From a virus: 50,358 nt of DNA. Made by a program: the position numbers and the translations under genes. Shown here one piece after another: positions 7,737 through 50,358 of this stretch (positions are counted from its first letter, which is position 1; every line of letters begins with the position of its first letter). Under the pieces are notes generated by a model. The model was not told the origin of the DNA, ran no database searches, and was given only the letters and a program-made list of their open reading frames with translations. Location: positions 1 through 50,358 of the IMG/VR virus record IMGVR_UViG_3300049218_000095. One strand, 5' to 3'.

Positions 7737-8903
7737 TCACGTGCGCACCCGGATCGACAGGTGTTTGCCTTCGAGCTGGTAGCTGAAGCGGCGCGGCGTG
7801 CCCGCGACCGACTGCAGCCACGGTTCTTTCGCGAGTACGCGCTGCTGCAGGCGCCAGGCATCTGCGCGGCCGATATGTCCCTGGTAACTGGCCCAGAGTG
7901 AGCGCACGTGCCGGAACTGCGCCGGTGTGGCGCGTGCGGTGTCGCCGGCGATGTGTTCCGACCTCCACGCGTGCAAGGTATGCTGCGCATGCCGGAGTAC
8001 TCGAGCGCGCACGCGGGTATGTGTCGGGAAAACTATGTAGCCGAGGAAGTCGCAGCCAGCGCTCAGCGGCCGGAGGCGGATATCGGCCTTGAGCTTCAGC
8101 TGCAGCTTGTCGGCGATGAACTGCTCGATCTGCGCCTGCCAGCGTTCCAACTGTGCGCGATCGCGGTGCACCAGCACGAAGTCATCGACGTAGCGCAGGT
8201 AGCGGTCGACCTTCAGCGTATGCTTGACGAACTGATCCAGCGCGTCGAGGTAGACGTTGGCGAAGAACTGGCTGCTGAGATTGCCGATCGGCAGGCCGCA
8301 GCCCGGCGCGGCGTTTTCGAGCCGCTTGTGCAGCGGAACCTGCGCGCGCTCCGCCGCGGTGGAGCGGTGGATCACGCCCTGCTTGCTAACCGGGTGGCGA
8401 AGCAGCGCATGCACGGCGCGGGTGACGATCTCCGGCGCGCCGGCGCGGTCGAGGCGCGGCTTGAGCATGCCGTAAAGCACGCCGCGGTGAATGCTGTTGA
8501 AGAAGTTGTGGATATCGAGCTGCAGATACCAGCCGCCACCCTGGCCGCTATGCACGGAGCGAGCGAACTGCTGCAGGCGTTCGACGGCCTTGTGCGTGCC
8601 TTTGCCCTTGCGGTTGGCGTAGCTGTCGTGGATGAACGCCGGCTCATAGAGCGTTTCGAGCTGCGGCACCAGCCAGTGGTGCACGACGCGGTCCGCGAAG
8701 TCGGGCGCGTGGATCTGGCGAGCCTTCGGCCGCTGGGCGATAAAGCACGTCGCGGGGCGCGGTGACCAGGTGCAGCCGTTGATTTCGCGTTGCAGCTGCA
8801 GCAGACCATCGGCCCAGCGGATATCGAAGGCGAGCTGGTTGCTGCTGGGCTTTTTGTTCTGGCGCGCGCACTTCCAGGCTCCGTACAGCGTTTTCAGACT
8901 CAC
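7737..8903 (-). CDS. DGR reverse transcriptase
   Basis: A 388-residue group II-intron-like reverse transcriptase of the diversity-generating-retroelement clade. Visible motifs are LDIHNFF (residues 129-135, first catalytic Asp), IGNLSSQ (206-212, the DGR-type (I/V/L)GxxxSQ signature in place of the usual QGxxxSP), and YVDD (238-241, catalytic aspartates). No maturase or endonuclease domain follows, as expected. It copies the TR RNA with errors at adenines to make mutagenic cDNA. The GTG at 8903 follows an AGGG and is the conservative start. The same frame stays open through the TR to an ATG at 9086, which would give a 449-residue protein. Confidence 0.93.
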   Translation of the reverse strand: MSLKTLYGAWKCARQNKKPSSNQLAFDIRWADGLLQLQREINGCTWSPRPATCFIAQRPKARQIHAPDFADRVVHHWLVPQLETLYEPAFIHDSYANRKGKGTHKAVERLQQFARSVHSGQGGGWYLQLDIHNFFNSIHRGVLYGMLKPRLDRAGAPEIVTRAVHALLRHPVSKQGVIHRSTAAERAQVPLHKRLENAAPGCGLPIGNLSSQFFANVYLDALDQFVKHTLKVDRYLRYVDDFVLVHRDRAQLERWQAQIEQFIADKLQLKLKADIRLRPLSAGCDFLGYIVFPTHTRVRARVLRHAQHTLHAWRSEHIAGDTARATPAQFRHVRSLWASYQGHIGRADAWRLQQRVLAKEPWLQSVAGTPRRFSYQLEGKHLSIRVRT

Positions 8904-8918
8904 TGCACCCTGACACTC

Positions 8919-9029
8919 ACCGGCGGACACGGCACGCACCGGCCGCACGAAGGCGGTGTTGTTCCGGTTGTTGTTGTTCACGTTGCCGTTGTTGAAATTG
9001 ACGATCCACGCGTGATCGGAAGACCACGC
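8919..9029 (-). repeat. DGR template repeat (TR)
   Basis: A 111-bp sequence between avd and the reverse transcriptase, same orientation. On the minus strand its core is rich in AAC codons (frame reads NFNNGNVNNNNRNN). It is homologous over its full 111 bp, without gaps, to four VRs at 9551, 10019, 10623 and 12467. All differences lie at TR adenines. At the 3' (left) boundary the TR reads GCCGGTGAGTGT where the VRs read GCCGGTCAGTAA (TGA at VR2), the expected IMH*/IMH difference that makes transfer one-way. Confidence 0.95.
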
Positions 9030-9082
9030 ATCCCCGCGCACTTGCGATCCGGCCAAACATCCATGTGGGTAGTAGGGCGTCG

Positions 9083-9517
9083 TCATGACTTGGCCTCAGC
9101 GATCGAGGCGGCGCGGGTACTCAGTGTCTCGGCACGCTCCGCCGGCGGCTGCGCCGGCGAATTCTGGCCGTTCGGATGCTGCTGCTTTTTCCAGCCGCCC
9201 ACCTGCATGCCGAGTTCTTCCGCACAACGCGCAAGCGCCTCGAACTGGGCAAAGCTGTGGAACGCGTGCACCTGCTTGGCAAGCTGCAGGGTGAACTTCA
9301 GTTCATCGGTATCCCACACGAGCTGACCCACCCACCGCGCCTGCTGTGGCTTATCACGCCACGCCCGGTTAGCCACGCGCAGCACTTCGCGGGCAGCGCG
9401 CCGAAGATCCTCACCGACGCCGTAGCGGTGGCACCGAGGAAATTTCGACACGGCCAGCTCTATGTCACGGAGCAAACCAAAGGCCAGCTTTACGATGGGT
9501 GGGGTAGCTAGTGTCAT
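9083..9517 (-). CDS. avd: Avd-like DGR accessory protein (four-helix bundle)
   Basis: A 144-residue, helix-rich, basic protein with the layout of accessory variability determinant proteins and related four-helix-bundle proteins. Characteristic is FPRCHRYGVGEDLRRAAREVL near residues 27-47, followed by long amphipathic helices. Avd forms a pentameric barrel that binds the reverse transcriptase and TR RNA. The 30-residue C-terminal tail is low complexity. ATG at 9517 is chosen over an upstream TTG because the latter falls inside the conserved post-VR element. Its stop overlaps an ATG (ATGA) opening the TR/RT frame. Confidence 0.85.
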   Translation of the reverse strand: MTLATPPIVKLAFGLLRDIELAVSKFPRCHRYGVGEDLRRAAREVLRVANRAWRDKPQQARWVGQLVWDTDELKFTLQLAKQVHAFHSFAQFEALARCAEELGMQVGGWKKQQHPNGQNSPAQPPAERAETLSTRAASIAEAKS

Positions 9518-9544
9518 CACGCTCTCAAAAGCCCAAAAGGCCAA

Positions 9545-9973
9545 TTACTGACCGGCGGACACGGCACGCACCGGCCGCACGAAGGCGGCGAGGTGCCGGC
9601 CGTCGTAGAGCACGTCGCCGCTGCTGAAATCGACGACCCACGCGTGACCGGAAGACCACGCCGTCAGCGTGTTGGTCCAGTACCAGTCGTCGTAAGGTGT
9701 GTTCGGGAAGAAGTCCGGATCGATTGCCGGGCTGTGCGTGGACAGATCGAGGATCGACTCAAGCTCGTCGCGCTCCGGCAAGCGCCAGTCGCTGAAGCCC
9801 GACATGCAAAACGCAGCACACGCGGCCTTGGCGTCGTCATGGTCGAGCGCTTCGGGAAGCACCTTCACGCCAAACATCAGGCCGAGCTCTTGCACCAGCA
9901 CGGCATCCCATTCGGCCGCATCCTTCGCGAGCTGCTGGCCGTCGCTGCCGATCTTGATCAGGGTGTATTTCAT
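9545..9973 (-). CDS. DGR target protein 1, DUF1566-like
   Basis: A 142-residue protein ending in the variable repeat. The core shows DUF1566 hallmarks: FSDWRLPERDELESILDLS, then a WYWTNT segment, then HAWVVDF and AFVRPVRA. The variable C terminus (about residues 104-130) would form the ligand-binding face of a C-type-lectin-like fold. No signal peptide or membrane segment, so it is predicted cytoplasmic or virion-borne. It is a close tandem paralogue of target 2 (same length, near-identical first 25 residues). All four targets end in the same AVSAGQ sequence, which is fixed by the IMH. Confidence 0.9.
   Translation of the reverse strand: MKYTLIKIGSDGQQLAKDAAEWDAVLVQELGLMFGVKVLPEALDHDDAKAACAAFCMSGFSDWRLPERDELESILDLSTHSPAIDPDFFPNTPYDDWYWTNTLTAWSSGHAWVVDFSSGDVLYDGRHLAAFVRPVRAVSAGQ
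9551..9661 (-). repeat. DGR variable repeat 1 (VR1)
   Basis: 111 bp, ungapped match to the TR. By eye, 16 mismatches, every one at a TR adenine (T on the plus strand). It encodes the C terminus of target 1 and includes its IMH just before the stop. Confidence 0.93.
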
Positions 9974-10012
9974 TTCAATTCCTTGAGTGAGAGAGAAAGC
10001 CCAAAAGGCCAA

Positions 10013-10441
10013 TCACTGACCGGCGGACACGGCACGCACCGGCCGCACGAAGGCGGTGCCGTTCCGGTCGTCGTAGTACACGTCGCCGCCGTGGAAAAGG
10101 ACGATCCACGCGCGAACGGAAGACCACGCCGTCGGCGTGTTGGTCCAATACCAGTCGTCGTACGGTGTGTCCGGAAAGAACTCCGGATCGATTGCCGGGT
10201 CGTGCCTGGACAGATCGAGGATCGACTCGAGCTCGTTGCGTTCCGGCAGGCGCCAGTCATTGAAGCCGGCAATCGATACCGCTGCGCATGCCGCCTTCGC
10301 GGCATCATGGTCGAGCGCTTCGGGTAGCACCTTCGCGCAGAACATCAGGCCGAGTTCTTGCATCAGCACAGCATCCCATTCGGCCGCATCCTTCGCGAGC
10401 TGCTGGCCATCGCTGCCTATCTTGATCAGTGTGTATTTCAT
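10013..10441 (-). CDS. DGR target protein 2, DUF1566-like
   Basis: A 142-residue paralogue of target 1, starting MKYTLIKIGSDG. It carries the FNDWRLPERNELESILDLS and WYWTNT motifs, then the variable segment ending AFVRPVRAVSAGQ. Its diversified residues are different (for example RAWIVLFHGG versus HAWVVDFSSG), while the framework outside the VR is conserved, as expected for independently mutagenised duplicates. No secretion signal. An AAGGAAAT-type ribosome site precedes the ATG. Confidence 0.9.
   Translation of the reverse strand: MKYTLIKIGSDGQQLAKDAAEWDAVLMQELGLMFCAKVLPEALDHDAAKAACAAVSIAGFNDWRLPERNELESILDLSRHDPAIDPEFFPDTPYDDWYWTNTPTAWSSVRAWIVLFHGGDVYYDDRNGTAFVRPVRAVSAGQ
10019..10129 (-). 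repeat. DGR variable repeat 2 (VR2)
   Basis: 111 bp aligned to the TR without gaps. About 14 mismatches, all at TR adenines. It forms the 3' end of target gene 2. The 175 bp upstream of this gene (10442-10616) holds no gene that I can see. Confidence 0.93.
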
Positions 10442-10616
10442 TCGATTTCCTTGATGGTTAGATGCCAGAGGCCAGATCGACTGGCCGGTTCCCTGAGTGC
10501 CTTCTCGTTTTGGCTGTTCGAATCAGCTCAGCTCGTCTCGGGTCTGATTGCTTGCGGACTTTGTGTTGCGCGCGGCGCACCGCTCTGGCGGTAAAACTGA
10601 AAGCCCAAAGGGCCAA

Positions 10617-11162
10617 TTACTGACCGGCGGACACGGCACGCACCGGCCGCACGAAGGCGGGGCCGTTCCGGCCGTAGCTGCTCACGTAGCCGAGGTAGAA
10701 ACTGACGAACCACGCGTGAACGGAAGACCACGCACAGGGCGTGCGCGACCACACCCAGCTGCCGTTGCTCTTGAAAAAGTTCGTGTTGATGCACGGCTCA
10801 TGTCGGCTCAGATCCCGTAGGGATTCCAGCTCGGACAGGTCAGGCAGACGCCAATCGGAGTGATCGCCAAGACGGAGATCGGCCGCGTACGCTTCGGCCT
10901 CGGCGAAGTTCATGCGCTTGGGCGATTCCTCTGCCGCCCACATAAGCCCCGTCTTGTGATCGGTGACCAATGGCGCGTCGCTGGCCCGCTCGAAACGCGC
11001 GGCCGCCGCGTCGGAATCGTTCGATGCGGCCGCGCGTGCAAAACCGCCGCTCGCGAACGACTTCGCCAGAGAATCGGCGAACAGCGTGTTCAGCGGCGAC
11101 GTGGCGTCGCTGGGCTGCAGGTTGATGGTGACGTGCTTGATGTTGATAACAGGCTTGTTCAT
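10617..11162 (-). CDS. DGR target protein 3, DUF1566-like with N-terminal extension
   Basis: A 181-residue protein. Residues 1-60 (MNKPVINIKHVTINLQPSD and an Ala/Ser-rich stretch) are unrelated to the other targets. From about residue 64 the DUF1566-like part begins (VTDHKTGLMWAAEES, then DWRLPDLSELESLRDLS) and ends in the VR. The N-terminal extension could be a multimerisation or particle-attachment segment; that is speculation. ATG at 11162 is preceded by AGGA. No signal peptide. Confidence 0.9.
   Translation of the reverse strand: MNKPVINIKHVTINLQPSDATSPLNTLFADSLAKSFASGGFARAAASNDSDAAAARFERASDAPLVTDHKTGLMWAAEESPKRMNFAEAEAYAADLRLGDHSDWRLPDLSELESLRDLSRHEPCINTNFFKSNGSWVWSRTPCAWSSVHAWFVSFYLGYVSSYGRNGPAFVRPVRAVSAGQ
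10623..10733 (-). repeat. DGR variable repeat 3 (VR3)
   Basis: 111 bp aligned to the TR without gaps. About 15 mismatches, all at TR adenines. It encodes the C terminus of target 3. Confidence 0.93.
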
Positions 11163-11169
11163 GGGAGTC

Positions 11170-11379
11170 CTATGCGGTGGCGCCGGCCGGGCGGCTGGCG
11201 TTCTGGGGGAAATCGGGATACGAACCCCAGGGCGCGTACAGCTCGCGCCAGCGGGTTTCATCAGTACCTACGGCGTTGCGGCGGGCGTATCGACAGAGGC
11301 GTCCGTCTTTCCAGACCTCACGTCGATCGGTAACTCGGTTGTCGAAAATTCCGTCGAAGAGGTCGGCTGGTCGAGGCAT
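11170..11379 (-). CDS. Hypothetical small protein between DGR targets
   Basis: A 69-residue protein (starts MPRPADLFDGIFDNRVTDRR, later RWRELYAPWGSYPDF), no known family. It ends 8 bp before target 3 starts. It overlaps the 3' part of the next upstream gene by 112 bp in another frame; that overlap is large, so one of the two may be shorter than given. Sequence looks protein-like, with well mixed residues. Confidence 0.5.
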   Translation of the reverse strand: MPRPADLFDGIFDNRVTDRREVWKDGRLCRYARRNAVGTDETRWRELYAPWGSYPDFPQNASRPAGATA

Positions 11380-11690
11380 GGCGAGGCCTTGGGCGTTGGC
11401 GGCGTGAGCGTGAGCGGCGCGGGAACGTGGATCTGCCGCGGCTTCGGCTTGCGCCGGAAAAGGTTGCGCAGCTGCTGCAGCACGCCGCGGCGCGCGCGTG
11501 CGTTCTCGATCGCGAGGATCGCCGCTATTGCCCTGTCGCCGCGGTCATACGCGGCCGGCGATTTGTCCCAGCGCTTCGGCATGCCCTTGGCGTGAATGGC
11601 GCGCCGGCGCCAGTTCGCCGCGGCGGCGTAGAAGCTCAGCGCTTCACGCATGTTCACGTTCTCGCGCAGCAGACGACCGCGGCCGAACAT
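11268..11690 (-). CDS. Hypothetical protein in DGR operon
   Basis: A 140-residue protein: a helical basic N-terminal half (REALSFYAAAANWRRRAIHA, MPKRWDKSPAAYDRGDRAIAAIL), then a Pro/Thr/Ser-rich tail. The start at 11690 overlaps the upstream stop (TGATG). No family recognised. The C-terminal tail overlaps the gene at 11170-11379. Confidence 0.55.
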   Translation of the reverse strand: MFGRGRLLRENVNMREALSFYAAAANWRRRAIHAKGMPKRWDKSPAAYDRGDRAIAAILAIENARARRGVLQQLRNLFRRKPKPRQIHVPAPLTLTPPTPKASPCLDQPTSSTEFSTTELPIDVRSGKTDASVDTPAATP

Positions 11691-11995
11691 CAGCGCTCTG
11701 CCTCGGCAGCCGCCCAGCCAGCGAGGCGCTTCGCGCGCAGCTCGGCCATGCGAGCTTCGTACTCTGCGCGTGTTTCGTCCGCGCGCTGGTTGGGCAGGCG
11801 GTTGAGGCGAGCCAGGTCAGCGACGATCACCTGGTGTCCGTCCTGGAGCGGCGCAGCCGCGCCGGCGTTCTCGCGCCGCTGCGCATCCTCGGCATGCCGG
11901 TTCGAATAGCGCGCCATGCGCTCGGCGGCGCTCGGCTGGCGGCAGCCATCCCAGCGGCCGGGCTTGGCATGAAAGAACGCGATCAGCGGATTCAT
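11690..11995 (-). CDS. Hypothetical protein in DGR operon
   Basis: A 101-residue protein beginning MNPLIAFFHAKPGRWDG and ending in a charged helical region (ETRAEYEARMAELRAKRLAG). The CRQPSAAERMARYSNR portion resembles small phage morphogenesis/regulatory proteins, but I cannot name it. Overlaps at both ends (4 bp upstream, TGATG downstream) tie it to the same transcript as the DGR targets. Confidence 0.55.
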   Translation of the reverse strand: MNPLIAFFHAKPGRWDGCRQPSAAERMARYSNRHAEDAQRRENAGAAAPLQDGHQVIVADLARLNRLPNQRADETRAEYEARMAELRAKRLAGWAAAEAER

Positions 11996-12204
11996 GCGGC
12001 TTGCTCCGAAGAAAAAGACTCGCCGGCGGCGGGGGAGACCGACCGGGTAGGGGAAGCGGCGGACACCGCCGACGAGTCGGGGAAAATGGAAGTCTTCTGG
12101 CCGGTGGGCGCGTAACGCGCACGGCGCTCTGCGTCGCGGCGATGCCTGGCGCCGAGCATCCGCTCGAGCTCGGCCTGCAGCTGTGCGTCGGTCAGCGGGG
12201 TCAC
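11992..12204 (-). CDS. Hypothetical small protein in DGR operon
   Basis: A 70-residue protein starting at a GTG (12204) that overlaps the stop of the upstream membrane-protein gene (GTGA). N terminus helical (TPLTDAQLQAELERMLGARH); C-terminal half Ser/Ala-rich and probably disordered. No family recognised. Confidence 0.5.
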   Translation of the reverse strand: MTPLTDAQLQAELERMLGARHRRDAERRARYAPTGQKTSIFPDSSAVSAASPTRSVSPAAGESFSSEQAA

Positions 12205-12425
12205 AGCGCACCAGCCTTCACAGCCAGGTAGATCACGATCGAAGCGGCCACCATGACGGCCAGCACGACGTTCTCGGCGCTGAGCAATGCACGAAGCGAG
12301 CTCTGCGGGCGCAGTGGCACAGGTCGCGCCTGTTCGAGCTGCGCAAGCCACTCACCGACGCCGCTGCGCAGCTCGTGACGAGACATGGTCGGTGCGATGG
12401 TGGATTTGCGGACGGATACGTTCAT
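12201..12425 (-). CDS. Small single-pass membrane protein in DGR operon
   Basis: A 74-residue protein. Residues 1-50 are hydrophilic; residues about 51-74 form one transmembrane helix (NVVLAVMVAASIVIYLAV) reaching the C terminus, so it looks tail-anchored. AAGGAA precedes the ATG at 12425. It is the first gene after target 4. It could anchor or sense something at the inner membrane in concert with the diversified proteins; no homologue recognised. Confidence 0.6.
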   Translation of the reverse strand: MNVSVRKSTIAPTMSRHELRSGVGEWLAQLEQARPVPLRPQSSLRALLSAENVVLAVMVAASIVIYLAVKAGAL

Positions 12426-12460
12426 CTGCGTTCCTTGATGGACAAAGCCCAAAAGGCCAA

Positions 12461-12907
12461 TTACTGACCGGCGGACACGGCACGCACCGGCCGCACGAAG
12501 GCGGCGTAGTCCCGGCCGTAGTCGTCCACGTGGCCGAGGCCGAAATTGACGATCCACGCGTGATCGGAAGACCACGCAACCGGCGTGCTGGACCAGTACC
12601 AGTCGGATTTCGTATCGGGGTAAAACGCAGGGTCGGCAGCCGGGCTGTGGCGCGAGTGATCGACCAGGGAGAACAGTTCCTGCACGGTCGGCAGGCGCCA
12701 GTCGTTAAAGCCGGCATAGCTGTCGGCATTGAGCAGGCCGAGCGCCGCTTCGGCTTCGGCGTAGGTCAGTTCGTCGGCAATGGCGCCGACGGCGGCCATC
12801 AGACCGGTAGCGGGATTCAGAGTTGCGAGGAAGGTATCAGCGCCGGCATCGAGCTGTGTGCCATTGGAGCCGATCTTGATCAGGTTGCTGCTGTTTGGCG
12901 TCTGCAC
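12461..12907 (-). CDS. DGR target protein 4, DUF1566-like
   Basis: A 148-residue protein, the first gene of the leftward operon. GTG start at 12907 preceded by GGAG at good spacing. Core: FNDWRLPTVQELFSLVDHS, then DWYWSSTPVAWSSDHAWIVNF and the variable segment to AFVRPVRAVSAGQ. It has the most complete DUF1566 pattern of the four. The first part of its VR (DHAWIVNF) is identical to the TR-encoded peptide, so that stretch is unmutated. No signal peptide. Confidence 0.9.
   Translation of the reverse strand: MQTPNSSNLIKIGSNGTQLDAGADTFLATLNPATGLMAAVGAIADELTYAEAEAALGLLNADSYAGFNDWRLPTVQELFSLVDHSRHSPAADPAFYPDTKSDWYWSSTPVAWSSDHAWIVNFGLGHVDDYGRDYAAFVRPVRAVSAGQ
12467..12577 (-). repeat. DGR variable repeat 4 (VR4)
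   Basis: 111 bp aligned to the TR without gaps. About 13 mismatches, all at TR adenines and all in the IMH-proximal part; the upstream 40 bp or so are identical to the TR. Confidence 0.93.
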
Positions 12908-13009: not shown

Positions 13010-13351
13010 TCAGAGCTTGATGATGGTTTTGCCCATGGCCAAGAACGCCTGCCGCTGTTCGGGCGACATCTGGGAAAGAATCTCAAGAGCGAGCTTTTGC
13101 TCGCCGGTGATCGCGTACTGGGGATCTTCACCAGCAAGCATTGAAATGCTGGTGTCCATGACCTTGGCAAGTGCAATTAACTCTTCCACGCCCGGTTTAT
13201 TCCTGCCTGTGAACCAGTGGCCTACAGCCCCTCCGTCGACCTTCACTCCCAACACCTGAAGCTGCGCTGCGATTTGGTCGTAGGTGAGCTTGCGCCCCTG
13301 GTTGGCCAGCTCACGCTTCCGGGTACGCAACATTTCATGGATAGGTCTCAT
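13010..13351 (-). CDS. Prophage repressor, XRE-family (CI-like)
   Basis: A 113-residue protein with an N-terminal helix-turn-helix (LTYDQIAAQLQVLGVKVDGGAVGHWFTGRNKPGVEELIALAKVM) and a short helical C terminus. It lacks the S24 protease domain of lambda CI, so it would not be inactivated by RecA-driven autocleavage; induction must work otherwise. It lies between two operator pairs (12947-12984 and 13388-13424), exactly the lambda arrangement, and is read away from the cro-like gene. Confidence 0.85.
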   Translation of the reverse strand: MRPIHEMLRTRKRELANQGRKLTYDQIAAQLQVLGVKVDGGAVGHWFTGRNKPGVEELIALAKVMDTSISMLAGEDPQYAITGEQKLALEILSQMSPEQRQAFLAMGKTIIKL

Positions 13352-15283: not shown

Positions 15284-16154
15284 CGCTCTGCTCAACGAAG
15301 CCTTCAAGGCCATGATGCCCACGACACAGAAATTCGTGTTCATCGCGCTGTGCGACTACGCGAACGACGCCGGCGAGTGCTTTCCGTCCGTCACCCAGAT
15401 GATGGAACGCTGCTGTATGAGCGACAGGAGCGTGCAGCGGGGCATCGCGGAGCTTGAGCGCATGGGATATCTGCGCCGCGGCTTTCGGCGCGGCAGGTCG
15501 ACTGTCTATGTGGTGACCGATCCTGCGTCGTGGCCTTGCAAACAAGGCGGCGCACCTACGACACAGAGTCACCCAGACACACTGTCACCCCGACACAGAG
15601 TCACCCCAGAGGCGACATACAGTCACCCCGACACAGTGTCACCACCGACAGATAGTCACCACGCCCCCGACACAGTGTCGGGAGCCCACGACACACTGTC
15701 ACCCATAACCACCACTCAACCATCACTTAACCCAGAGCGTGTTTATTCCGCGGGCGAGCGCGAAGCGGATTCGTCAGGGAGCGAAGCGCCGGCCACCAGC
15801 ACCCCGATCAAACCGGCGGTCAGGGCGTGCATGGCGATGATCGCCGCGGGCATCCCGGCGGCCAAGGTGAGCGCCAACCACCCGACGCTGGTGCAGCTGA
15901 TCGCCGAAGGGCGAGTCACCGAGGACTTTGCCAGCGCCGCGGCCTATGCGCTTGAGCAGGTCACCCCTGAATCAGCTTTCGCCTACGCCCTGGGCATCGT
16001 GCGCCGCCAAGCCAACGCGCCGCCGCGCCGCGGTGCAGCCAAACCCGCCGCCAACGACAACTTCGAGGGGAAAAACTATGCAGCCGCAGCCACAGCCATT
16101 GACCAACTCTCTCCCGAGCTCCGAGCCGCTGTTGAGCGAGCCCATGCCATCTGA
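15276..16154 (+). CDS. Phage replication initiator (O-like), winged-helix N terminus
   Basis: A 292-residue protein. N-terminal winged helix (KFVFIALCDYANDAGECFPSVTQMMERC) matches phage replication proteins and the preceding small gene. Residues about 95-150 are a Ser/Thr/Pro/His-rich linker encoded by eight 16-bp iterons. The C-terminal part (VRACMAMIAAGIPAAKVSANHPTLVQ) probably contacts the helicase loader. GTG start at 15276 is supported by alignment with the paralogue from its first residues. The layout, with the origin inside the initiator gene followed by a DnaC-like loader, mirrors lambda O/P. Confidence 0.8.
   Translation: MSNALLNEAFKAMMPTTQKFVFIALCDYANDAGECFPSVTQMMERCCMSDRSVQRGIAELERMGYLRRGFRRGRSTVYVVTDPASWPCKQGGAPTTQSHPDTLSPRHRVTPEATYSHPDTVSPPTDSHHAPDTVSGAHDTLSPITTTQPSLNPERVYSAGEREADSSGSEAPATSTPIKPAVRACMAMIAAGIPAAKVSANHPTLVQLIAEGRVTEDFASAAAYALEQVTPESAFAYALGIVRRQANAPPRRGAAKPAANDNFEGKNYAAAATAIDQLSPELRAAVERAHAI
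15559..15704 (+). repeat. Iteron cluster, putative phage replication origin
   Basis: Eight 16-bp units related to CGACACANNGTCACCC begin at 15559, 15575, 15591, 15613, 15629, 15646, 15668 and 15689. Spacing is mostly 16-17 bp with three steps of 21-22. Many units contain the small palindrome GACAC-A-GTGTC. They lie inside the initiator gene, as the lambda origin does. Confidence 0.8.
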
Positions 16155-36732: not shown

Positions 36733-39194
36733 GTGGCCAGCAGATAGGCACTGTCATCGGCGGCGTGGCCGGCTTCGCGATTGGTGGACCTGCAGGTGCT
36801 CAGATCGGCATGGCGATCGGTGGCCTGGTGGGCGGCATCATCGACCCGACCAAGATCAACGGCCCCAAGATCGGCGACGGCCAGACCCAGCAGTCGACCG
36901 ACGGCATCGCTATACCGTGGGTGCAAGGCACTGCGCGCATCGCAGGTACGATCGTACAGTACAGCCCGCGGCGCCAGGTTAGAGTCAAAGACAGTAGCGG
37001 CAAAGGTGGTCCAAGCGTTCACCACTACGAAGCTCACCAGGACTTCGCGATTCTCGTTTGCGAGTCGTGCTCATTGCGGGACAGCTCGATGGGACAGATC
37101 CTGATCGTGGAACAAGATGGCCATATCGTCTATGACGTGCGGCCAGGTAGCACGATTTTGTCCGACTCGGCGAAGTGGAAAGCCAACGTCGATTTCATGT
37201 TCGGCGATGAAGGGCAACTACCGCATCCGACTCTCGAAGCGATCACGGGCGTTGGCAATCAGGTCTCCTACCGCGGCAGTCTTGTCGTGGTGTTCCGCGA
37301 TTTCAACTTGACCACGATGTCGAGCAATCGTATTCCGTCTTTCGTTTTCACTGTTCAAGACAGCGGCAGTGCCGGCGTCGTTGTTCCCTACGATGACCCG
37401 AGCTGGAAATATCTTTTCGATCCGGGCAGCAGCACGGACTATTCCAGCCCGACTTTCGACGACAGAAGCTGGGCTGTTGGTCGTGGCGGTTTCGGCAATG
37501 GCGGTCCGGCTGCAGGTAGTCAAGTTGTGCATACACCAGGTCCAAATCCCGACGAGGGACAGCTTATCTGGCTACGTCGCAGCGTTAACGCGACGCCAGG
37601 CCAGATGCTTACCCTATCGGCGTCACACGACAACAATGCGCAGGTATGGTGGAACGGCGCGCTCATTTTAGATCAAGCCGACGGTAGCGCAGTATTCGGG
37701 ACTGACGTCGTTACCATACCCGGCACAAACGTCGAGTCGATCAACCTCGTTGCGATGCGCGTGCGGGAAACCGACGCATCAGCTCCAGGCAATTACTCCT
37801 ATGCTTCTCTGGTTGTGAGCCAAGGTGCCGTCGCTCCAGGGTCGGTGGCTTTGGAACAGATTTGCACTCGCATCTGTCTGCGTGGCGGATTGCAGACGTC
37901 CGACTTCGACGTTTCAGCGTTGAACAGTATCGCCGTGCTCGGATATCCCATCGCCCGTCAGTCGAGCGGCACGGATGCACTGACCCCGTTGCTTGCTGCT
38001 TTTTTCGCATACGCTTCGGAGTTCGATGCAAAACTAAATTTCAAAATGTACGGGGCGGATGCCGTTCTCACGATTGACGAGGATGATTTGCTAGCCGGCA
38101 ACGATGCGAACGACGGGTACATCACCAAGAATTTGCGCAATCAGCAGACTGAGTTTCCCAAGCGAATCGTGGCCAGCTACTACGATCCTGCGCAAAACTA
38201 TTTCACGTGCCAAGTACCAGCTGGGCGTACAGCGATCGGCATCAAGGCCATCGGCGATCAGGCATTTGACATTCCGGTGGTTATGGACGCAACGACGGCG
38301 AAGCAAGCAGCAGACAAAGCGCTCAAAGTGGCGTACGCGACACTGGAAGGGACGATCGAAGATTCCGTGCCGTTCGCCATGTCGAGCGCTACCTATTTGT
38401 CTCTCGCTTCGGGGGATGCAGTGATTTTCCGGGGCAAGCGCTACGTCCTCGACGAGGTCGTCATCAGCCAGAATTACATGAAACTAACCAAACGGTATGA
38501 GCGCCAGTCGGCCTACACGTCGCTGGTTCAAGCCATCGCAGGCAACCCACCCGAACCGCCCACGTCGCCATACTCCGGGCCATCAACGTTGCTCGTTCTC
38601 AATTTGCCGTCGCTGCGACCACAGGATACCTATGGGGTGTATCTCGCTGCCGCTTCGCTGCTAAGCGCGCCGTCAAGCAGTTGGGCAGGGTGCGCGGTCC
38701 AGATGTCACTCGACGGGCAAGTGACTTGGAACACGGTGGCATCTATTTCGCAAAAGTCGACGATGGGAACGCTCGCGGTCGATGAGCCTGGCACACATGA
38801 GCCGATCACTGTGCAGGTGAATGACAATCTCGAAACGGTTGCGCCGGAACAGATCGCCGCTCAGGCAAACGGTTTTGCTATTACCGCCGCATCGGGTGTC
38901 TCTGAACTTGGCCAGTTTCAAACTGCTACAGAGCAGCCGACGGTGGCCCAGTACCAGCTGACGAATGTCACGCGAGGATTGAAAGGAACGGTCGAAGTTT
39001 TGCACCTCGCGGGCGAGTCTTTCACCATGCTCGACGCGGTGTATTTCGTTCCTATCGACACCAGCTTTGCCGGAAAGACGCTTTATTTTCGAACGATCGG
39101 CTTCGGCGAGTCGGTACCGGATGACCCAGTCGTGAGCTGCGTTTATACGCCAGACCTAACCATCATCATCAACGGCGGGAAGACCGGCACATGA
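36729..39194 (+). CDS. Tail tip protein (GTA gp15/TipJ-like)
   Basis: An 821-residue protein. N terminus is a Gly-rich hydrophobic segment (IGGVAGFAIGGPAGAQIGMAIGG), then VQGTARIAGTIVQYSP typical of tip attachment proteins. A beta-rich insertion (about residues 225-380, WLRRSVNATPGQMLTLSASHDNNAQVWWNG) looks like a carbohydrate-binding or jelly-roll domain. The central part (ALEQICTRICLRGGLQTSDFDVS) matches baseplate hub family proteins. Confidence 0.88.
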   Translation: MSGQQIGTVIGGVAGFAIGGPAGAQIGMAIGGLVGGIIDPTKINGPKIGDGQTQQSTDGIAIPWVQGTARIAGTIVQYSPRRQVRVKDSSGKGGPSVHHYEAHQDFAILVCESCSLRDSSMGQILIVEQDGHIVYDVRPGSTILSDSAKWKANVDFMFGDEGQLPHPTLEAITGVGNQVSYRGSLVVVFRDFNLTTMSSNRIPSFVFTVQDSGSAGVVVPYDDPSWKYLFDPGSSTDYSSPTFDDRSWAVGRGGFGNGGPAAGSQVVHTPGPNPDEGQLIWLRRSVNATPGQMLTLSASHDNNAQVWWNGALILDQADGSAVFGTDVVTIPGTNVESINLVAMRVRETDASAPGNYSYASLVVSQGAVAPGSVALEQICTRICLRGGLQTSDFDVSALNSIAVLGYPIARQSSGTDALTPLLAAFFAYASEFDAKLNFKMYGADAVLTIDEDDLLAGNDANDGYITKNLRNQQTEFPKRIVASYYDPAQNYFTCQVPAGRTAIGIKAIGDQAFDIPVVMDATTAKQAADKALKVAYATLEGTIEDSVPFAMSSATYLSLASGDAVIFRGKRYVLDEVVISQNYMKLTKRYERQSAYTSLVQAIAGNPPEPPTSPYSGPSTLLVLNLPSLRPQDTYGVYLAAASLLSAPSSSWAGCAVQMSLDGQVTWNTVASISQKSTMGTLAVDEPGTHEPITVQVNDNLETVAPEQIAAQANGFAITAASGVSELGQFQTATEQPTVAQYQLTNVTRGLKGTVEVLHLAGESFTMLDAVYFVPIDTSFAGKTLYFRTIGFGESVPDDPVVSCVYTPDLTIIINGGKTGT

Positions 39195-40600
39195 CGCAGG
39201 TTCTCAACTACCGCTTTCAGTTTCGGTACGGTACGGCTGCCGAGTGGACAGCAACCAACGAGGTGCTTCTGCCCGACGAGGGCGGCCACGAGTCGGACAC
39301 GAACAAGCTCAAAATTGGTAATGGCGTCACTCCGTGGAACGCGTTGCCTTATTTCGGAGGGAACAACGCATCGTACCCGGTGGTCACAACGGCGGGTAAC
39401 ATCACGCTAAATGCAGCTGATCACGCTAACAGGATGTTGCTCCATACAAACGGGACGATCACCGTTGGGCCTAGCGCTGCCGCTGGTTTCTTTGTTGGTG
39501 ACTCCATTAAAGTGCGCAAGCAAACAACTGACGTTGTTCTCTTTGCCGCAACGGGATCGGCGACGCTAGATTTCAACACCGTGGCTTATCAAGCGCAGAT
39601 GGGCAAGTTGAAAGATGTCGTCGAGCTAAAAGTCATAGCGCCAGACACATATGCAATCCTGGGAACGCTGCTCGCAGTCGCGCCGCCTACGCCGCTCACG
39701 CTTACGGGTACATACGCAGCCGGCAGCTCAGGTGACGCGTACACATCGTCGCTGGCCATTGCGGGTGGAACGGCACCATACCTCAATCCTAGAATCCTTA
39801 GCGGCGCATTGCCGCCCGGCTTGGCGTTGAGCGTCGTCGGGTCAACCCTCGTGTTGAGCGGTACGCCGACCGCAGCCGCGTCCTATACGTTTGATGCAGC
39901 CGTTGATTCTACGGACGGGCAGACGGCTGATAGTTCGCAAACGATCGCTGTTGCGGGTGGCTCAGGCGGTGATCCTTTCTGGGACTATGTCACGTCGCTG
40001 CTGCATTTTGAGGACGGCGATGGATCAACAGCGTTTACTGACCAGAAAGGTGTTGCATGGACAATCCATAGCGGCACACCAAAGGAAACGACTGCTTGGG
40101 CACAATTCGGCGAAGGCTCGCTAGATGTAGGCGGCGGATCGATTTTGGGAGCCGTTGGTGCTGTCGGTTCTGGACGTTTCTGTATTGAAGGAACGACTAA
40201 ACTCACGGGTGCATCTCGTGGCATTTTTGACACCATTCTTGGAAATTCGGCGAGTGCTTTGGCGCTTGGCTTTGACGGAGCTGGGAACATCCAGCTTTAC
40301 CACGGGGGCAGCGTAAGCAACGTTGCCTATGCTCCTGCCGCAGGTACACCTTTCGCGTGGTGTGTTGAGCGAGATGGAAGCAGTAATATCCGAGTTTACG
40401 CGGATGGCGTTGTGTTAATGACCGTTGTTGATAGTTCAACTCTTGGTGGTTCAGATCATCTTTTCTTGGGATGTTATTACAACGAAGGCTATCCGACTGT
40501 CGGGTATATCGACGATTTCCGAGTGACTATTGGTCAGCCATCGGATCGTTACGGTGGACCATACACGCCGGCAACGGCAGCTTTCCCAAACCACGCCTAG
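39191..40600 (+). CDS. Receptor-binding-type tail protein with Mtd-N-like start
   Basis: A 469-residue protein. Residues about 8-55 (FRYGTAAEWTATNEVLL, then SDTNKLKIGNGVTPWNALPY) match the Mtd_N/phage-fibre attachment domain. Residues about 165-255 form an Ig-like putative-Ig domain (APYLNPRILSGALPPGLALS, VLSGTPTAAASYTFD). Residues 265-460 look like a concanavalin/LamG domain. It lacks any VR. It is the last structural gene and probably determines host binding. Confidence 0.8.
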   Translation: MTQVLNYRFQFRYGTAAEWTATNEVLLPDEGGHESDTNKLKIGNGVTPWNALPYFGGNNASYPVVTTAGNITLNAADHANRMLLHTNGTITVGPSAAAGFFVGDSIKVRKQTTDVVLFAATGSATLDFNTVAYQAQMGKLKDVVELKVIAPDTYAILGTLLAVAPPTPLTLTGTYAAGSSGDAYTSSLAIAGGTAPYLNPRILSGALPPGLALSVVGSTLVLSGTPTAAASYTFDAAVDSTDGQTADSSQTIAVAGGSGGDPFWDYVTSLLHFEDGDGSTAFTDQKGVAWTIHSGTPKETTAWAQFGEGSLDVGGGSILGAVGAVGSGRFCIEGTTKLTGASRGIFDTILGNSASALALGFDGAGNIQLYHGGSVSNVAYAPAAGTPFAWCVERDGSSNIRVYADGVVLMTVVDSSTLGGSDHLFLGCYYNEGYPTVGYIDDFRVTIGQPSDRYGGPYTPATAAFPNHA

Positions 40601-47005: not shown

Positions 47006-47117
47006 GTTGCGTACCTTTCCACCCTTCGAAAGGTGCCGCGCCAGCCTGAGAAGGTGTCAGGTTTTCGGGGATCAGCCCGGGCGCGGCTTCAACATCAAGA
47101 ATCACTATCCGCAGTTC

Positions 47118-47333
47118 TTAGCGGTCTAGCGGACAGGCAAGGCTTTTTGCAGCTTCGATCATATCCGTTACCGCCCAGCAGGCGTTTTGAATTTGGTGGG
47201 GAGAGGCACCGGCTTCGGCACCATCTCCGATAAGCGAGGTAATCGCCGACGCCTGTGCGAGTAGACGAGATATTTCGTCAAAGGTTTCGCGCGGATCGAG
47301 AACGGAAGCTTTCGTAGTGTTTGCGGTTGTCAT
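47118..47333 (-). CDS. Small hypothetical island protein
   Basis: A 71-residue helical protein (DEISRLLAQASAITSLIGDGAEAGASPHQIQNACWAVTDMIEAAK). Similar small proteins are frequent in proteobacterial islands. The 110 bp between it and the 46379 gene hold nothing recognisable. Confidence 0.55.
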   Translation of the reverse strand: MTTANTTKASVLDPRETFDEISRLLAQASAITSLIGDGAEAGASPHQIQNACWAVTDMIEAAKSLACPLDR

Positions 47334-47491
47334 GTGTCACCTCGTCTCTAGGGTTCTAGTGACCAACCCAAACCATTGCAGTAAGGGTGGCGGACGTACA
47401 GGGTTGGCGAACCGAGGATCAAGGAAGCCCGGCCAGCTCGAAAGCTGCCCTGCACGCCCACCGCAGAAAGCGAGCGCGACGCAGCGGACAC

Positions 47492-47513
47492 AAAAAAAGC
47501 GCCTTTTGGCGCT
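47492..47513 (-). terminator. Rho-independent terminator, leftward
   Basis: AGCGCC-TTTT-GGCGCT flanked on its left by seven A, so a U-run on the minus strand. Which transcript it serves is unclear, since the next gene to the right points rightward. Confidence 0.65.
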
Positions 47514-47656
47514 GCTGCGCCTTGATCTGATCAGGTCGCCAAACCTGGTCACCGATTTTGCGGTGACGACGAGAGGATGCTCCCGTGATGCGTGCATTGC
47601 AAGTGCCAAGTAGTTGCCCAAGAATCACAGAGACGACAGGCAGAGCAGGATGCATG

Positions 47657-48418
47657 ATGAGTGAGAAAAAGCTTAATTCTCAGCCTAAATCTACATTTTT
47701 TCGGCGCCTGTCAACTATAAATAGTTTTCTCGGTCACTGTCTCAATTTTGCCGCGCGTGATGCGATAAGCGCAGCGTTCGGGTGGGCGACTCTGGTCAAT
47801 GCTGCCGCCGTCGTCTATCTGGGGCATCAATGGGGGCTGAGCGTCAACCCAAGTCAGGGCTGGGTAAACACCTTCGAATACGCAGTGCTGTGTTTCCTGA
47901 TTGGCATGCTCATCGCATTTTTTATCAATCTTTTCTTGGTCTCACCAGTCAAGGCCTACCGCTTCATGAGACCACTTGTTTTGGCGATTAGTGGCACGGC
48001 GAGATCGCCGGACTTTGTATTTAACGAGACCACTCGTGGCTATAGCTCAACCGTTGTGGTGAAAAACAGATCGCACTCATATTTACTTGACTGCACAGTC
48101 CATGTTGTCAATTTGACGCGGCAAGATGGATCGAAGTTTGCGCGTTTTGTTGAGAAATTCGACCTTCCTCCCAAGTCAACCAAGCACATTTATTTCGCGC
48201 ATTGGTTCGCACGCGAGACACCGAACGCCGACGATACGGGGATTCGGTTAAACGGTTCGATAGGAGGGTGGGGCGGAAATATTTTTGAGCTTTCCAGCGA
48301 AGGGGAGGAATTGCTCATAAAAGTAGAATTGGCGAACGTGGAAGCGAAATACATTCGATGCCGCGTATGGGTAGATCGAAAACTCCGTGAGCTAAGAACG
48401 ATCCATCTGGGGCGGTGA
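47657..48418 (+). CDS. Two-helix membrane protein, unknown
   Basis: A 253-residue protein: two transmembrane helices (about residues 45-65 and 75-100, the latter FEYAVLCFLIGMLIAFFINLFLV), then a beta-rich soluble domain of about 150 residues. AGGA precedes ATG codons at 47654 and 47657. It is the only large gene on the plus strand in this part of the island and sits next to the integrase, a common cargo slot. No family recognised. Confidence 0.6.
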   Translation: MSEKKLNSQPKSTFFRRLSTINSFLGHCLNFAARDAISAAFGWATLVNAAAVVYLGHQWGLSVNPSQGWVNTFEYAVLCFLIGMLIAFFINLFLVSPVKAYRFMRPLVLAISGTARSPDFVFNETTRGYSSTVVVKNRSHSYLLDCTVHVVNLTRQDGSKFARFVEKFDLPPKSTKHIYFAHWFARETPNADDTGIRLNGSIGGWGGNIFELSSEGEELLIKVELANVEAKYIRCRVWVDRKLRELRTIHLGR

Positions 48419-48464
48419 GAACCAAGCAGATAACGAGCTGTCGCCAGAAAATAGTAGGTGTCGA

Positions 48465-49694
48465 TCAACCAGCCCGGCGCTTGATCGCTATGATCTTGCC
48501 ACCGGCCCGCAGCCCGTCCAGATAGTCCGCCCATGCCTGCATCATTCGGGTGCGTTCTTCCAGATATTGCGCTGCGCTTGTGTAGGCTTCGCGCACCTTG
48601 TTTGACTCGGCATGCGCAAGCTGGCGCTCGATGGCGTCCGGGTTCCAGCCCATTTCGTTTAAGCGCGTCGCGGCCATGCTGCGGAAGCCGTGCCCGGTCA
48701 TTTCCTCGCCTGTGTAGCCAAGCCTGCGCAGGGCTGCGTTGATCGTGTTTTCAGACATAGGACGTGAGGCCGTGCGCAATCCGGGGAATACGTAGCGGGA
48801 GTCACCGCCGCCACCTGTCAGCAGACGCAGCTCGCGCAGTACCGTCACGGCTTGGGCGGATAGGGGCACTAGGTGGGGTGCCCTCATCTTCATTTTCTCA
48901 CCGGGTATACGCCATATAGCGCCGTCAAGATCGAACTCGGACCACTCCGCATGGCGCAGCTCTCCGGGCCTGACAAACACCAGCGGGGCTAGTTTTAGCG
49001 CGGCTAGTGTGGCGGGTTGACCTACAAAGCCATCGATGGCGCGCAGCAGCTCGCCTACACGCAATGGATCGGTAATGGCTGCATGGTGCTTGCCCCTTGG
49101 AGCCTTGAGCGCACCGCGCAGGCTGGCAGTTAAGTCGGTTGATGCTTTCCCCTCTAGCACCGCGTAGCGGAACACTTGCCCAGCTTTTACCTTGACCCGA
49201 CTGGCGGTTTCTAGCTTGCCAGTTGACTCGATTCCCCGAAGCACGTCCAAAAGTTCGCGGGTCGTTATTTCTGAGATTGGGCGGGTACCAAGGGCAGGGA
49301 ACAGGTGTCCGAGTATCCATTCGTTCTTGGTTGCCGTGACAGCCGCAACGTCCTGCCTTGCCATCCATTCGCGCGCGACAGCTTCAAAGGTTTCTGCGGC
49401 AGAGGCAGCGGCTACCGATCGACTCTGTTTCACTCGCTTGCGTTCGGCGCTGGTATCGACGCCTTGCTTCAGTTTGCTGCGAGCATCGGCGCAAGCGGCT
49501 CGAGCTGCTACTAGAGACTGTTCGGGGTAAGCGCCCAGTGCCAGCAGCTTCTCTTTACCCGCGACGCGGTACTTCCACCGCCACAATTTGGAGCCTGTCG
49601 GGTTGACGAGCAGATACATGCCGCCACCGTCCGCCAGCTTGTAGGGCTTGGCCGCTGGCTTCGCTTTGCGGATGGATACGTCAGACAGTGGCAT
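48465..49694 (-). CDS. int: P4-type tyrosine integrase (DUF4102)
   Basis: A 409-residue integrase. The N-terminal DUF4102 domain is clear (LSDVSIRKAKPAAKPYKLADGGGMYLLV region). Catalytic residues: Arg in FVRPGELRHAEWSEFD, HGFRSMAATRL (box II), and Tyr in REAYTSAAQYLEER. It lies 174 bp from the tRNA-Leu 3' end and points away from it, as P4-family integrases do at their tRNA target. Confidence 0.95.
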   Translation of the reverse strand: MPLSDVSIRKAKPAAKPYKLADGGGMYLLVNPTGSKLWRWKYRVAGKEKLLALGAYPEQSLVAARAACADARSKLKQGVDTSAERKRVKQSRSVAAASAAETFEAVAREWMARQDVAAVTATKNEWILGHLFPALGTRPISEITTRELLDVLRGIESTGKLETASRVKVKAGQVFRYAVLEGKASTDLTASLRGALKAPRGKHHAAITDPLRVGELLRAIDGFVGQPATLAALKLAPLVFVRPGELRHAEWSEFDLDGAIWRIPGEKMKMRAPHLVPLSAQAVTVLRELRLLTGGGGDSRYVFPGLRTASRPMSENTINAALRRLGYTGEEMTGHGFRSMAATRLNEMGWNPDAIERQLAHAESNKVREAYTSAAQYLEERTRMMQAWADYLDGLRAGGKIIAIKRRAG

Positions 49695-49734
49695 GGTGGG
49701 GGTATCCTTCCCAAGAGGCAGGCCAGTCCTGCCG

Positions 49735-49755
49735 ATACCCCCGACTGTACCCCCA
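49735..49755 (+). repeat. Putative integrase arm-site repeat (right)
   Basis: ATACCCCC, four bases, GTACCCCCA, matching 40966-40986 at 19 of 21 positions. Located 40 bp upstream of the integrase start. Confidence 0.6.
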
Positions 49756-49798
49756 ATTACGGGGGTATTCTAGTAGACGGGTCGGGACGCTATGGGCA

Positions 49799-49826
49799 TA
49801 AAAAAACCGCCAAAGTGGCGGCTTGT
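49799..49826 (-). terminator. Terminator downstream of tRNA-Leu
   Basis: CCGCC / GGCGG stem with A-run to its left (U-run on the minus strand). It ends the tRNA transcript before the integrase region. Confidence 0.75.
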
Positions 49827-49868
49827 ATGGGATGGCGGGGTTCTATGGGATGGGCTGAAACTGATATT

Positions 49869-49955
49869 TGGTGCCCGGAGCGGGAATCGAACCCGCAAGA
49901 CCGTGAGGTCGAGGGATTTTAAGTCCCTTGCGTCTACCAGTTTCGCCATCCGGGC
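49869..49955 (-). tRNA. tRNA-Leu (UAA)
   Basis: An 87-nt cloverleaf on the minus strand, including the encoded CCA. GCCCGGA pairs with TCCGGGC; anticodon TAA in ACTTAAAAT; long variable arm (class II) and GGTTCGATTCC T-loop. Its 3' end is the insertion site of the island. Confidence 0.97.
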
Positions 49956-50053
49956 TGATAGTGCGTTTGTGGCGCTGCGCCAGCGGCAGCAGGTGGTGCG
50001 AATCGTAGCATGCGTGAACGCGTAGGCAGAGGCTGACGCGTCGTTGCCAACCT

Positions 50054-50358
50054 TCAGAGCAGGCTTTTGAAGATGTGAATGCCGGCGGTGTATTCGCCGA
50101 TGATGGTGCCGAGGCTGACCAGGAAGAAGTTCAGCAGGGTGCGGGCGACGCGGTTTTTCCACCAGCCGCTCCAGTGGCCGATATCGTCGCGCAAGGTGTC
50201 GAAGTCGACCACGCGCGGGCGGCGCACCCAGGCTTCGGCCATGGCGCTGATGCCGCCGGAAGGGATGCCCGGTCGAAACGGCTTGATCGGTCCGGCGATG
50301 GCGGCGGCGAGAATGCTCAGCGGGTGACCGCCGGCGATCAGCGCGCCGAGTGCGGAGA
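50054..50358 (-). CDS. TraB-family membrane protein, C-terminal part
   Basis: The 3' end of a gene that continues past the window (frame open to 50358). The peptide includes AGPIKPFRPGIPSGGISAM, then AWVRRPRVVDFDTLRDDI and FFLVSLGTIIGEY, the conserved C-terminal membrane domain of TraB-family proteins. Host gene flanking the island. Any start within the window is internal to the family. Confidence 0.8.
   Translation of the reverse strand, partial: SALGALIAGGHPLSILAAAIAGPIKPFRPGIPSGGISAMAEAWVRRPRVVDFDTLRDDIGHWSGWWKNRVARTLLNFFLVSLGTIIGEYTAGIHIFKSLL

Follow-up and report, generated by a model that had tools for sequence, protein, structure and literature searches.

A four-target phage diversity-generating retroelement with its template inside the reverse transcriptase reading frame and within a putative conserved RNA fold

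How does a diversity-generating retroelement (DGR) choose and delimit the RNA that it copies when the template is part of a protein-coding frame? Most of the mechanistic knowledge on DGRs comes from a single element, that of BPP-1, in which a spacer RNA placed 3′ of the template recruits and primes the enzyme. The question is raised by the DGR found at positions 7737 to 12907 of the viral record IMGVR_UViG_3300049218_000095 from IMG/VR (50,358 nt, analysed in full and hereafter called the window), whose template repeat (TR) is located inside the open reading frame (ORF) of the reverse transcriptase (RT). The explanation that probably best accounts for the observations as a whole is that the RNA of the operon formed by the accessory gene avd and the RT gene would be at once the messenger for the RT and the template for mutagenesis, with the template lying in a folded domain. 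What the sequences themselves show is that the VRs diverge at adenines only, that there are four targets, that the frame stays open across the TR and that the helices covary.

The TR, the four variable repeats (VRs) and the border for initiation of mutagenic homing (IMH in the targets, IMH* in the template) were placed as follows, a slash marking the border:

8919..9029, minus strand: TR, inside the RT ORF, in the same frame as in the targets
9551..9661, minus strand: VR1 in target gene 1, 16 mismatches to the TR, all at A
10019..10129, minus strand: VR2 in target gene 2, 14 mismatches to the TR, all at A
10623..10733, minus strand: VR3 in target gene 3, 15 mismatches to the TR, all at A
12467..12577, minus strand: VR4 in target gene 4, 13 mismatches to the TR, all at A
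8915..8921, minus strand: IMH* border, the TR ending in GGT/GAGT and the VRs in GGT/CAGT (IMH)

The TR and the four VRs are each 111 bp long and align without gaps. A scan of both strands of the full 50 kb for TR copies differing only at TR adenines recovered the same five copies that a first-pass annotation, made from the sequence alone, had reported at these positions, and no further VR. The adenine-mutagenesis pattern that it had described was also borne out, as all 58 of the 58 TR/VR mismatches in the window fall at TR adenines, which occupy 24 of the 111 positions; the probability of this outcome under random placement is about (24/111)^58. The TR/VR observation is confirmed, and an origin by chance is impossible. 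The GGT/CAGT border in the VRs and GGT/GAGT in the TR were found in the window and in nearly all of the relatives displayed. The window VRs are followed by just a 4–5 bp GGCC-TTT-GGGC stem; a BPP-1-type hairpin after the VR, GC-rich, of 7–10 bp and with a GRNA loop, as defined in PMC3240598, was not found, the stem being weak in the window and not conserved in the relatives.

The divergence pattern also bears on whether the element is functional. In every pair of window VRs, the 87 non-adenine positions are all identical (87/87), whereas the 200 nt upstream are just 51–85% identical, and this identity beside diverged neighbouring sequence is evidence of recent activity of the DGR. It is very unlikely that the VR differences are old and the element no more than a decayed relic: besides the non-adenine identity, all ORFs are intact and the RT keeps its YVDD motif. 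Such decay would fit one near relative, L006, whose RT is 94% identical and whose TR is identical over 87 matched positions, but whose target array has collapsed to one short, truncated chimeric gene (L006:5550-6010); the loss of this array despite a near-identical TR and RT indicates that target number changes fast. In 102 related loci (RT identity of at least 53%), 2907 TR/VR mismatches were located at adenines and 29 elsewhere, a ratio that is descriptive, as the scan itself favours adenine-type matches. Moreover, among relatives with cassettes about 93–95% identical, both VRs differed at 9–19 of 22–25 TR-adenine positions (39–83%) and at 0–6 of about 71–88 non-adenine positions (0–8%). The annotation's view of an active or recently active DGR therefore held, and the adenine-focused variation that it had proposed as a check was observed, in close relatives only. 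The sequences show diversification in the family rather than in the window's own population. Two pairs of near-identical metagenome contigs (L017/L018 and L050/L055) carried identical VRs, which fits a common source or no recent homing. A search of viral contigs with the exact TR pattern, each A read as N, gave no match outside the window's record, and searches with Avd and target 3 recovered mostly the L006 contig and weak relatives.

The two protein genes of the operon overlap by their start and stop codons:

7737..9086, minus strand: RT ORF, 449 amino acids, Pfam RVT_1 (E 1.2e-15) and PHROG 1423 (E 6e-91)
9083..9544, minus strand: Avd accessory protein gene, PHROG 3206 'Avd protein of DGR' (E 1.7e-12)

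The pairing of an RT bearing YVDD with an Avd-like protein, claimed beforehand, was confirmed by these matches, Avd being identified by PHROG 3206; against Pfam bAvd it scored 28.8 bits, under the 40-bit cut-off. As for the TR, its coordinates had been given correctly, but it lies inside the RT ORF and not beside the RT. Residues 1–19 of the RT ORF precede the TR, residues 20–56 are encoded by it, residues 57–61 form a linker, and the conserved RT begins at about residue 62. The RT start codon (ATG, 9084-9086) overlaps the Avd stop as ATGA. The structural model of the RT matches the BPP-1 bRT (8ub7) with a Z score of 33.3 and 29% identity from residue 60 on. A DGR-type RT, adenine differences between TR and VR, Avd, a C-type-lectin target with a 3′ VR and the IMH/IMH* border difference were all found.

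The comparison of the Lysobacterales clade revealed that the position of the TR is not a peculiarity of the window. An RT tree from which the TR part was excluded gave one supported group of 47 rows, the window among them, all of which carry their TR in the frame of the RT. The RT frame was open through the TR in 99 of 99 clade loci, and an in-frame ATGA was located upstream of the TR in 98 of them. Among 90 dereplicated loci, the Avd stop, located independently by Avd homology, was in phase with the RT in 89, at distances of between 126 and 222 nt, whereas the outgroup loci were distributed over the three phases as 15/18/10. The exception, L024:9554-11359, encodes Avd, the pre-TR part, the TR and the RT in one ORF of 601 amino acids, which may be a natural Avd-RT fusion or an assembly error or frameshift. 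In three further loci (L070, L082 and L103), the frames of the TR and the RT do not match, and compensating shifts on both sides keep the frame open, yielding a wholly different peptide, which indicates that the peptide itself is of little importance.

An ordinary BPP-1-like DGR, with the RT starting downstream of the TR and the open frame arising as a by-product of high GC content and the frame of the targets, would account for part of these observations. High GC content keeps 38% of the other two frames open (76/198), the TR must be open in the target frame in any case, a GTG lies near residue 62 in some loci, and RT residues 1–49 are predicted to be disordered (predicted local distance difference test, pLDDT, below 50 in AlphaFold). 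The by-product explanation is nevertheless unlikely in view of the uniform open frame and phase, of the absence of any ATG, GTG or TTG from the TR end to residue 77 in 46 of 91 loci, and of the three shifted-TR loci and the single Avd-TR-RT ORF of L024, in which the frame is kept. Taken together, the open frame, the phase, the missing downstream starts and the compensating shifts argue that ribosomes traverse the TR to make the RT; hence, on sequence grounds, the RT of the Lysobacterales clade appears to be translated through a TR lying inside its frame.

If the template is also a message, some feature of the RNA would have to mark it as a template. Covariation pointed to a fold comprising the avd end and the pre-TR part, in which a 7-bp helix (P1) encloses P2 and P3, and to a further helix (P0) spanning the TR:

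9123..9128, minus strand: P0 5′ arm GACACT, in the avd coding end, pairing with 8912-8917 and overlapping the ACTGAGT motif
8912..8917, minus strand: P0 3′ arm AGTGTC, immediately 3′ of the TR, within the start of the RT coding sequence, pairing with 9123-9128
9111..9117, minus strand: P1 5′ arm CCCGCGC, pairing with 9033-9039
9033..9039, minus strand: P1 3′ arm GCGCGGG, ending 3 nt before the TR
9093..9109, minus strand: P2 hairpin GCCTC/GAGGC, holding the GAGG of the RT start codon, which resembles a Shine–Dalgarno (SD) sequence
9052..9078, minus strand: P3 stem in the pre-TR part, seen by covariation

In 60 sequences, 97.3% of the P1–P3 cells were standard pairs, against 83.9% in shuffled alignments and 21–50% when the arms were slid, and double-sided changes amounted to 121 cells against 22 in the shuffled ones. 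A covariance model of this leader matched 12 DGRs outside the clade, and P1 ended 1–14 nt before the TR in 12 of 12; within these distant DGRs standard pairing reached 96.6% against 69.2%, in an alignment that was fitted to the model. The same model gave nothing significant in BPP-1 and five other phage DGRs. The P0 helix is formed by GAXACU at the avd end and AGUX′UC directly after the TR, and X and X′ could pair in 88 of 89 loci (A-U 42, C-G 24, U-A 14, U-G 8), compared with a maximum of 56 in 1000 shuffles. This pairing accounts for the residue after the TR, which varies among C, F and Y with the third base fixed. The evidence for the RNA structure is covariation only, as a single-sequence fold of the window RNA was no more stable than its shuffles. 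Therefore, a conserved RNA, made up of a P1–P3 leader reaching the 5′ border of the TR and of the P0 helix, would enclose the template, its function being inferred.

The heptamer ACTGAGT (9119-9125, minus strand), which extends from the P0 5′ arm into the first part of the P0–P1 junction, is invariant in the clade alignment, and distant DGRs carry mostly CACTGTGC or CATTGTGC at this position. A structured 3′ spacer hidden inside the RT coding sequence was also considered and rejected, since no drop in synonymous change follows residue 62 and the RNAalifold z score of about –2 equals that of coding controls. In Rfam 15, no match near threshold was obtained for 8700-9700. A leader of this type was not found described in the open literature searched, the subscription literature lying outside that search, and the novelty of a template-enclosing RNA is provisional.

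The leader could instead regulate RT translation only, by sequestering the SD sequence at the avd-RT junction, with no role in template use. The SD-like GAGG about 7 nt before the RT ATG, held in a P2 that is paired in 98.8% of cells, is what such a device would look like. However, the leader is also present in DGRs whose RT does not start in it, with P1 keeping its place shortly before the TR in all 12, and P0 spans the TR to pair with the bases directly after it, so that a purely translational role is rather unlikely.

Under the preferred explanation of a single Avd-RT operon RNA acting as both messenger for the RT and mutagenic template, the P0 helix would tie the end of avd to the nucleotides that immediately follow the TR, while the P1–P3 leader would stop at the 5′ border of the TR, and the RT-Avd complex would bind this folded domain. 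The TR would then be copied from its 3′ end (GGT/GAGT) towards P1, which would be the template boundary, with random insertion opposite adenines, and the resulting complementary DNA (cDNA) would replace the VRs at the 3′ ends of the four C-type-lectin genes, whose IMH reads CAGT where the template border reads GAGT, a single-base difference. Since the RT start overlaps the Avd stop and the SD-like GAGG sits in P2, ribosomes finishing avd may open P2 and translate through the TR into the RT, and bound RT-Avd may close the domain and convert the messenger into a template. In this scheme the template boundary, the priming, the translational switch and the role of the targets are the proposed parts. 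More generally, the balance tips slightly towards a widespread class of DGRs that lack the spacer and whose template would be recognised and bounded by means of the 5′ leader (P1–P3) and the TR-spanning P0 instead of the BPP-1 3′ spacer; in the Lysobacterales branch, the whole template RNA would be protein-coding, one molecule switching between translation into the RT and copying by the RT.

Several observations weigh against this explanation. The TR-encoded residues are predicted to be disordered and are replaced by a different peptide in the three shifted loci, so that a TR-encoded peptide as a working part of the RT was set aside and these residues are probably without a function of their own. 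The ratio of nonsynonymous to synonymous polymorphism (pN/pS) of the pre-TR part, 0.62, denotes mild coding constraint only, and synonymous change is reduced there too, with values of 0.24–0.46 for RT residues 1–61 and of 0.52–0.68 for the rest of the RT, and with no reduction just after the TR. Among distant DGRs, just 20 of 50 presented a P0 of at least 6 bp (permuted maximum 11), in a test anchored on the GTGC/GAGT motif; this anchor was picked after inspection, which makes the result weaker than the permutation count suggests and supporting evidence only, and without an anchor the search for P0 among the distant DGRs gave no significant result (mean z 0.07). Finally, the BPP-1 elements located 3′ of the TR, responsible for recruitment and cDNA priming, found no counterpart here.

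The comparison with BPP-1 (mtd/avd/TR/brt) places these differences in context. Both elements share the RT fold, Avd, a TR upstream of the RT, adenine mutagenesis and a C-type lectin target whose 3′ end carries the VR, but BPP-1 has a single Mtd target and the window has four. The TR of BPP-1 adjoins the avd stop, and 144 nt of non-coding spacer separate it from brt; this spacer folds, recruits bRT-Avd and primes cDNA synthesis (PMC12875486). No BPP-1-type non-coding spacer of about 140 nt separates the TR from the RT in the window, whose TR, inside the RT ORF, ends at most 21 nt before the conserved RT start. The distance from the TR end to residue 58 was at most 21 nt in 99 of 99 in-group loci and at most 20 nt in 38 of 51 outgroup loci, against 183 nt in BPP-1, and that to the conserved RT start was at most 20 nt in 98 of 99 in-group and 38 of 51 outgroup loci.

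Other systems come closer in layout. The TR lies inside one end of the RT ORF in the window, as in the group 3 DGRs (Schillinger et al., 2012), an annotation-based class with the TR in the 5′ portion of the RT ORF; in the window lineage, by comparison, the trait is fixed in a clade and comes with frame, start-codon and RNA-covariation tests. In Vibrio phage VP58.5 the annotated RT likewise starts at an ATGA overlapping avd and overlaps the TR, but 126 nt are kept between the TR and the RT. Retron non-coding RNAs have a1/a2 arms, a long-range helix that closes the template RNA directly upstream of the RT. The likeness to retrons is an analogy of layout only; the window has a DGR-type RT, Avd, TR/VR homology and adenine mutagenesis, and no sign of retron-style 2′-OH priming was seen in its element. 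The four-target DGR is a known cassette type, and it is the coding template and the enclosing RNA that set this lineage apart. If the proposed scheme is true, a conserved 5′ leader and a template-spanning helix, with no spacer, would constitute a second way to choose and bound a mutagenic template, and the RNA model could assist both the detection of DGR templates and the design of compact mutagenesis cassettes.

The targets themselves form an array upstream of avd on the same strand:

9545..9973, minus strand: target 1, Lcl_C/DUF1566, 142 amino acids, VR1 at its 3′ end
10013..10441, minus strand: target 2, Lcl_C/DUF1566, 142 amino acids, a recent paralogue of target 1, with 85% identity across the 200 nt upstream of the VR
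10617..11162, minus strand: target 3, Lcl_C/DUF1566, 181 amino acids from its ATG, the mechanical ORF start being at 11261
12461..12907, minus strand: target 4, Lcl_C/DUF1566, 148 amino acids, VR4 at its 3′ end

The GTG or TTG starts of some target ORFs are mechanical, and the ATG at 9973 is the probable start of target 1. Lcl_C (PF07603, equivalent to DUF1566) was above the cut-off in all four genes, the VR being the 3′ end of each, and the model of target 3 adopts a C-type lectin fold, with the C-terminal domain of Legionella Lcl (8q4e) as its best match. The proteins are small and present no obvious signal peptide by eye, no predictor having been run. These results, together with the RT, Avd and TR, agree with the earlier description of a four-target DGR in a phage genome with every VR closing a DUF1566-like gene. 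Clade loci with at least 9 kb upstream carried one target in 7 cases, two in 56 and three in 19, and the relatives fetched for comparison had 1–3 targets within 10 kb. Four is the most seen in the clade, which is uncommon yet already published: PMC3521204 reports four-VR DGRs, PMC6642488 describes a DGR of Stenotrophomonas whose six VRs lie mostly in DUF1566 genes, and PMC10743442 mentions up to eight DGR targets. The multi-target DUF1566 DGR of Stenotrophomonas sp. SKA14 has two TRs and six VRs, whereas the window has one TR and four targets within 4 kb; it shares with the window, as do the four-VR DGRs, several paralogous Lcl_C/DUF1566 targets, few templates and a related host group. A small ORF at about 12201-12428 (minus strand), directly after VR4 and between targets 3 and 4, encodes one hydrophobic, membrane-like stretch, as judged from its translation.

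An integrase, a repressor, replication, head and tail genes were found in one record, and the best explanation for the host phage is a temperate phage of Lysobacterales. A tyrosine integrase adjoins a transfer-messenger RNA (tmRNA) gene (1156-1510) and is followed on the minus strand by a C5 cytosine methyltransferase, the DGR, the four targets and a small helix-turn-helix repressor-like gene (13010-13351), with the replication, terminase, head and tail genes on the plus strand thereafter. This gene order places the DGR and its targets in the integrase-repressor arm and not in the tail module. The window adds one more multi-target case, with lectins encoded beside the repressor. The tail fibre gene (39191-40600) carries an Mtd_N domain and a laminin-G-like part and has no VR; in this phage the DGR targets proteins other than the tropism-type one. 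Prophage attachment repeats were not found, and the tmRNA 3′ end is not repeated. Within the replication-initiator-like gene, short direct repeats of the GACACAGAGTCACCCC type at 15560-15648 are possibly an origin. At 47022-50162, a P4-like satellite signature was observed, comprising the C4 antisense RNA, c4-a1b1, isrK and int-alpA RNAs, a second tyrosine integrase and a tRNA-Leu, so the record may hold two mobile elements.

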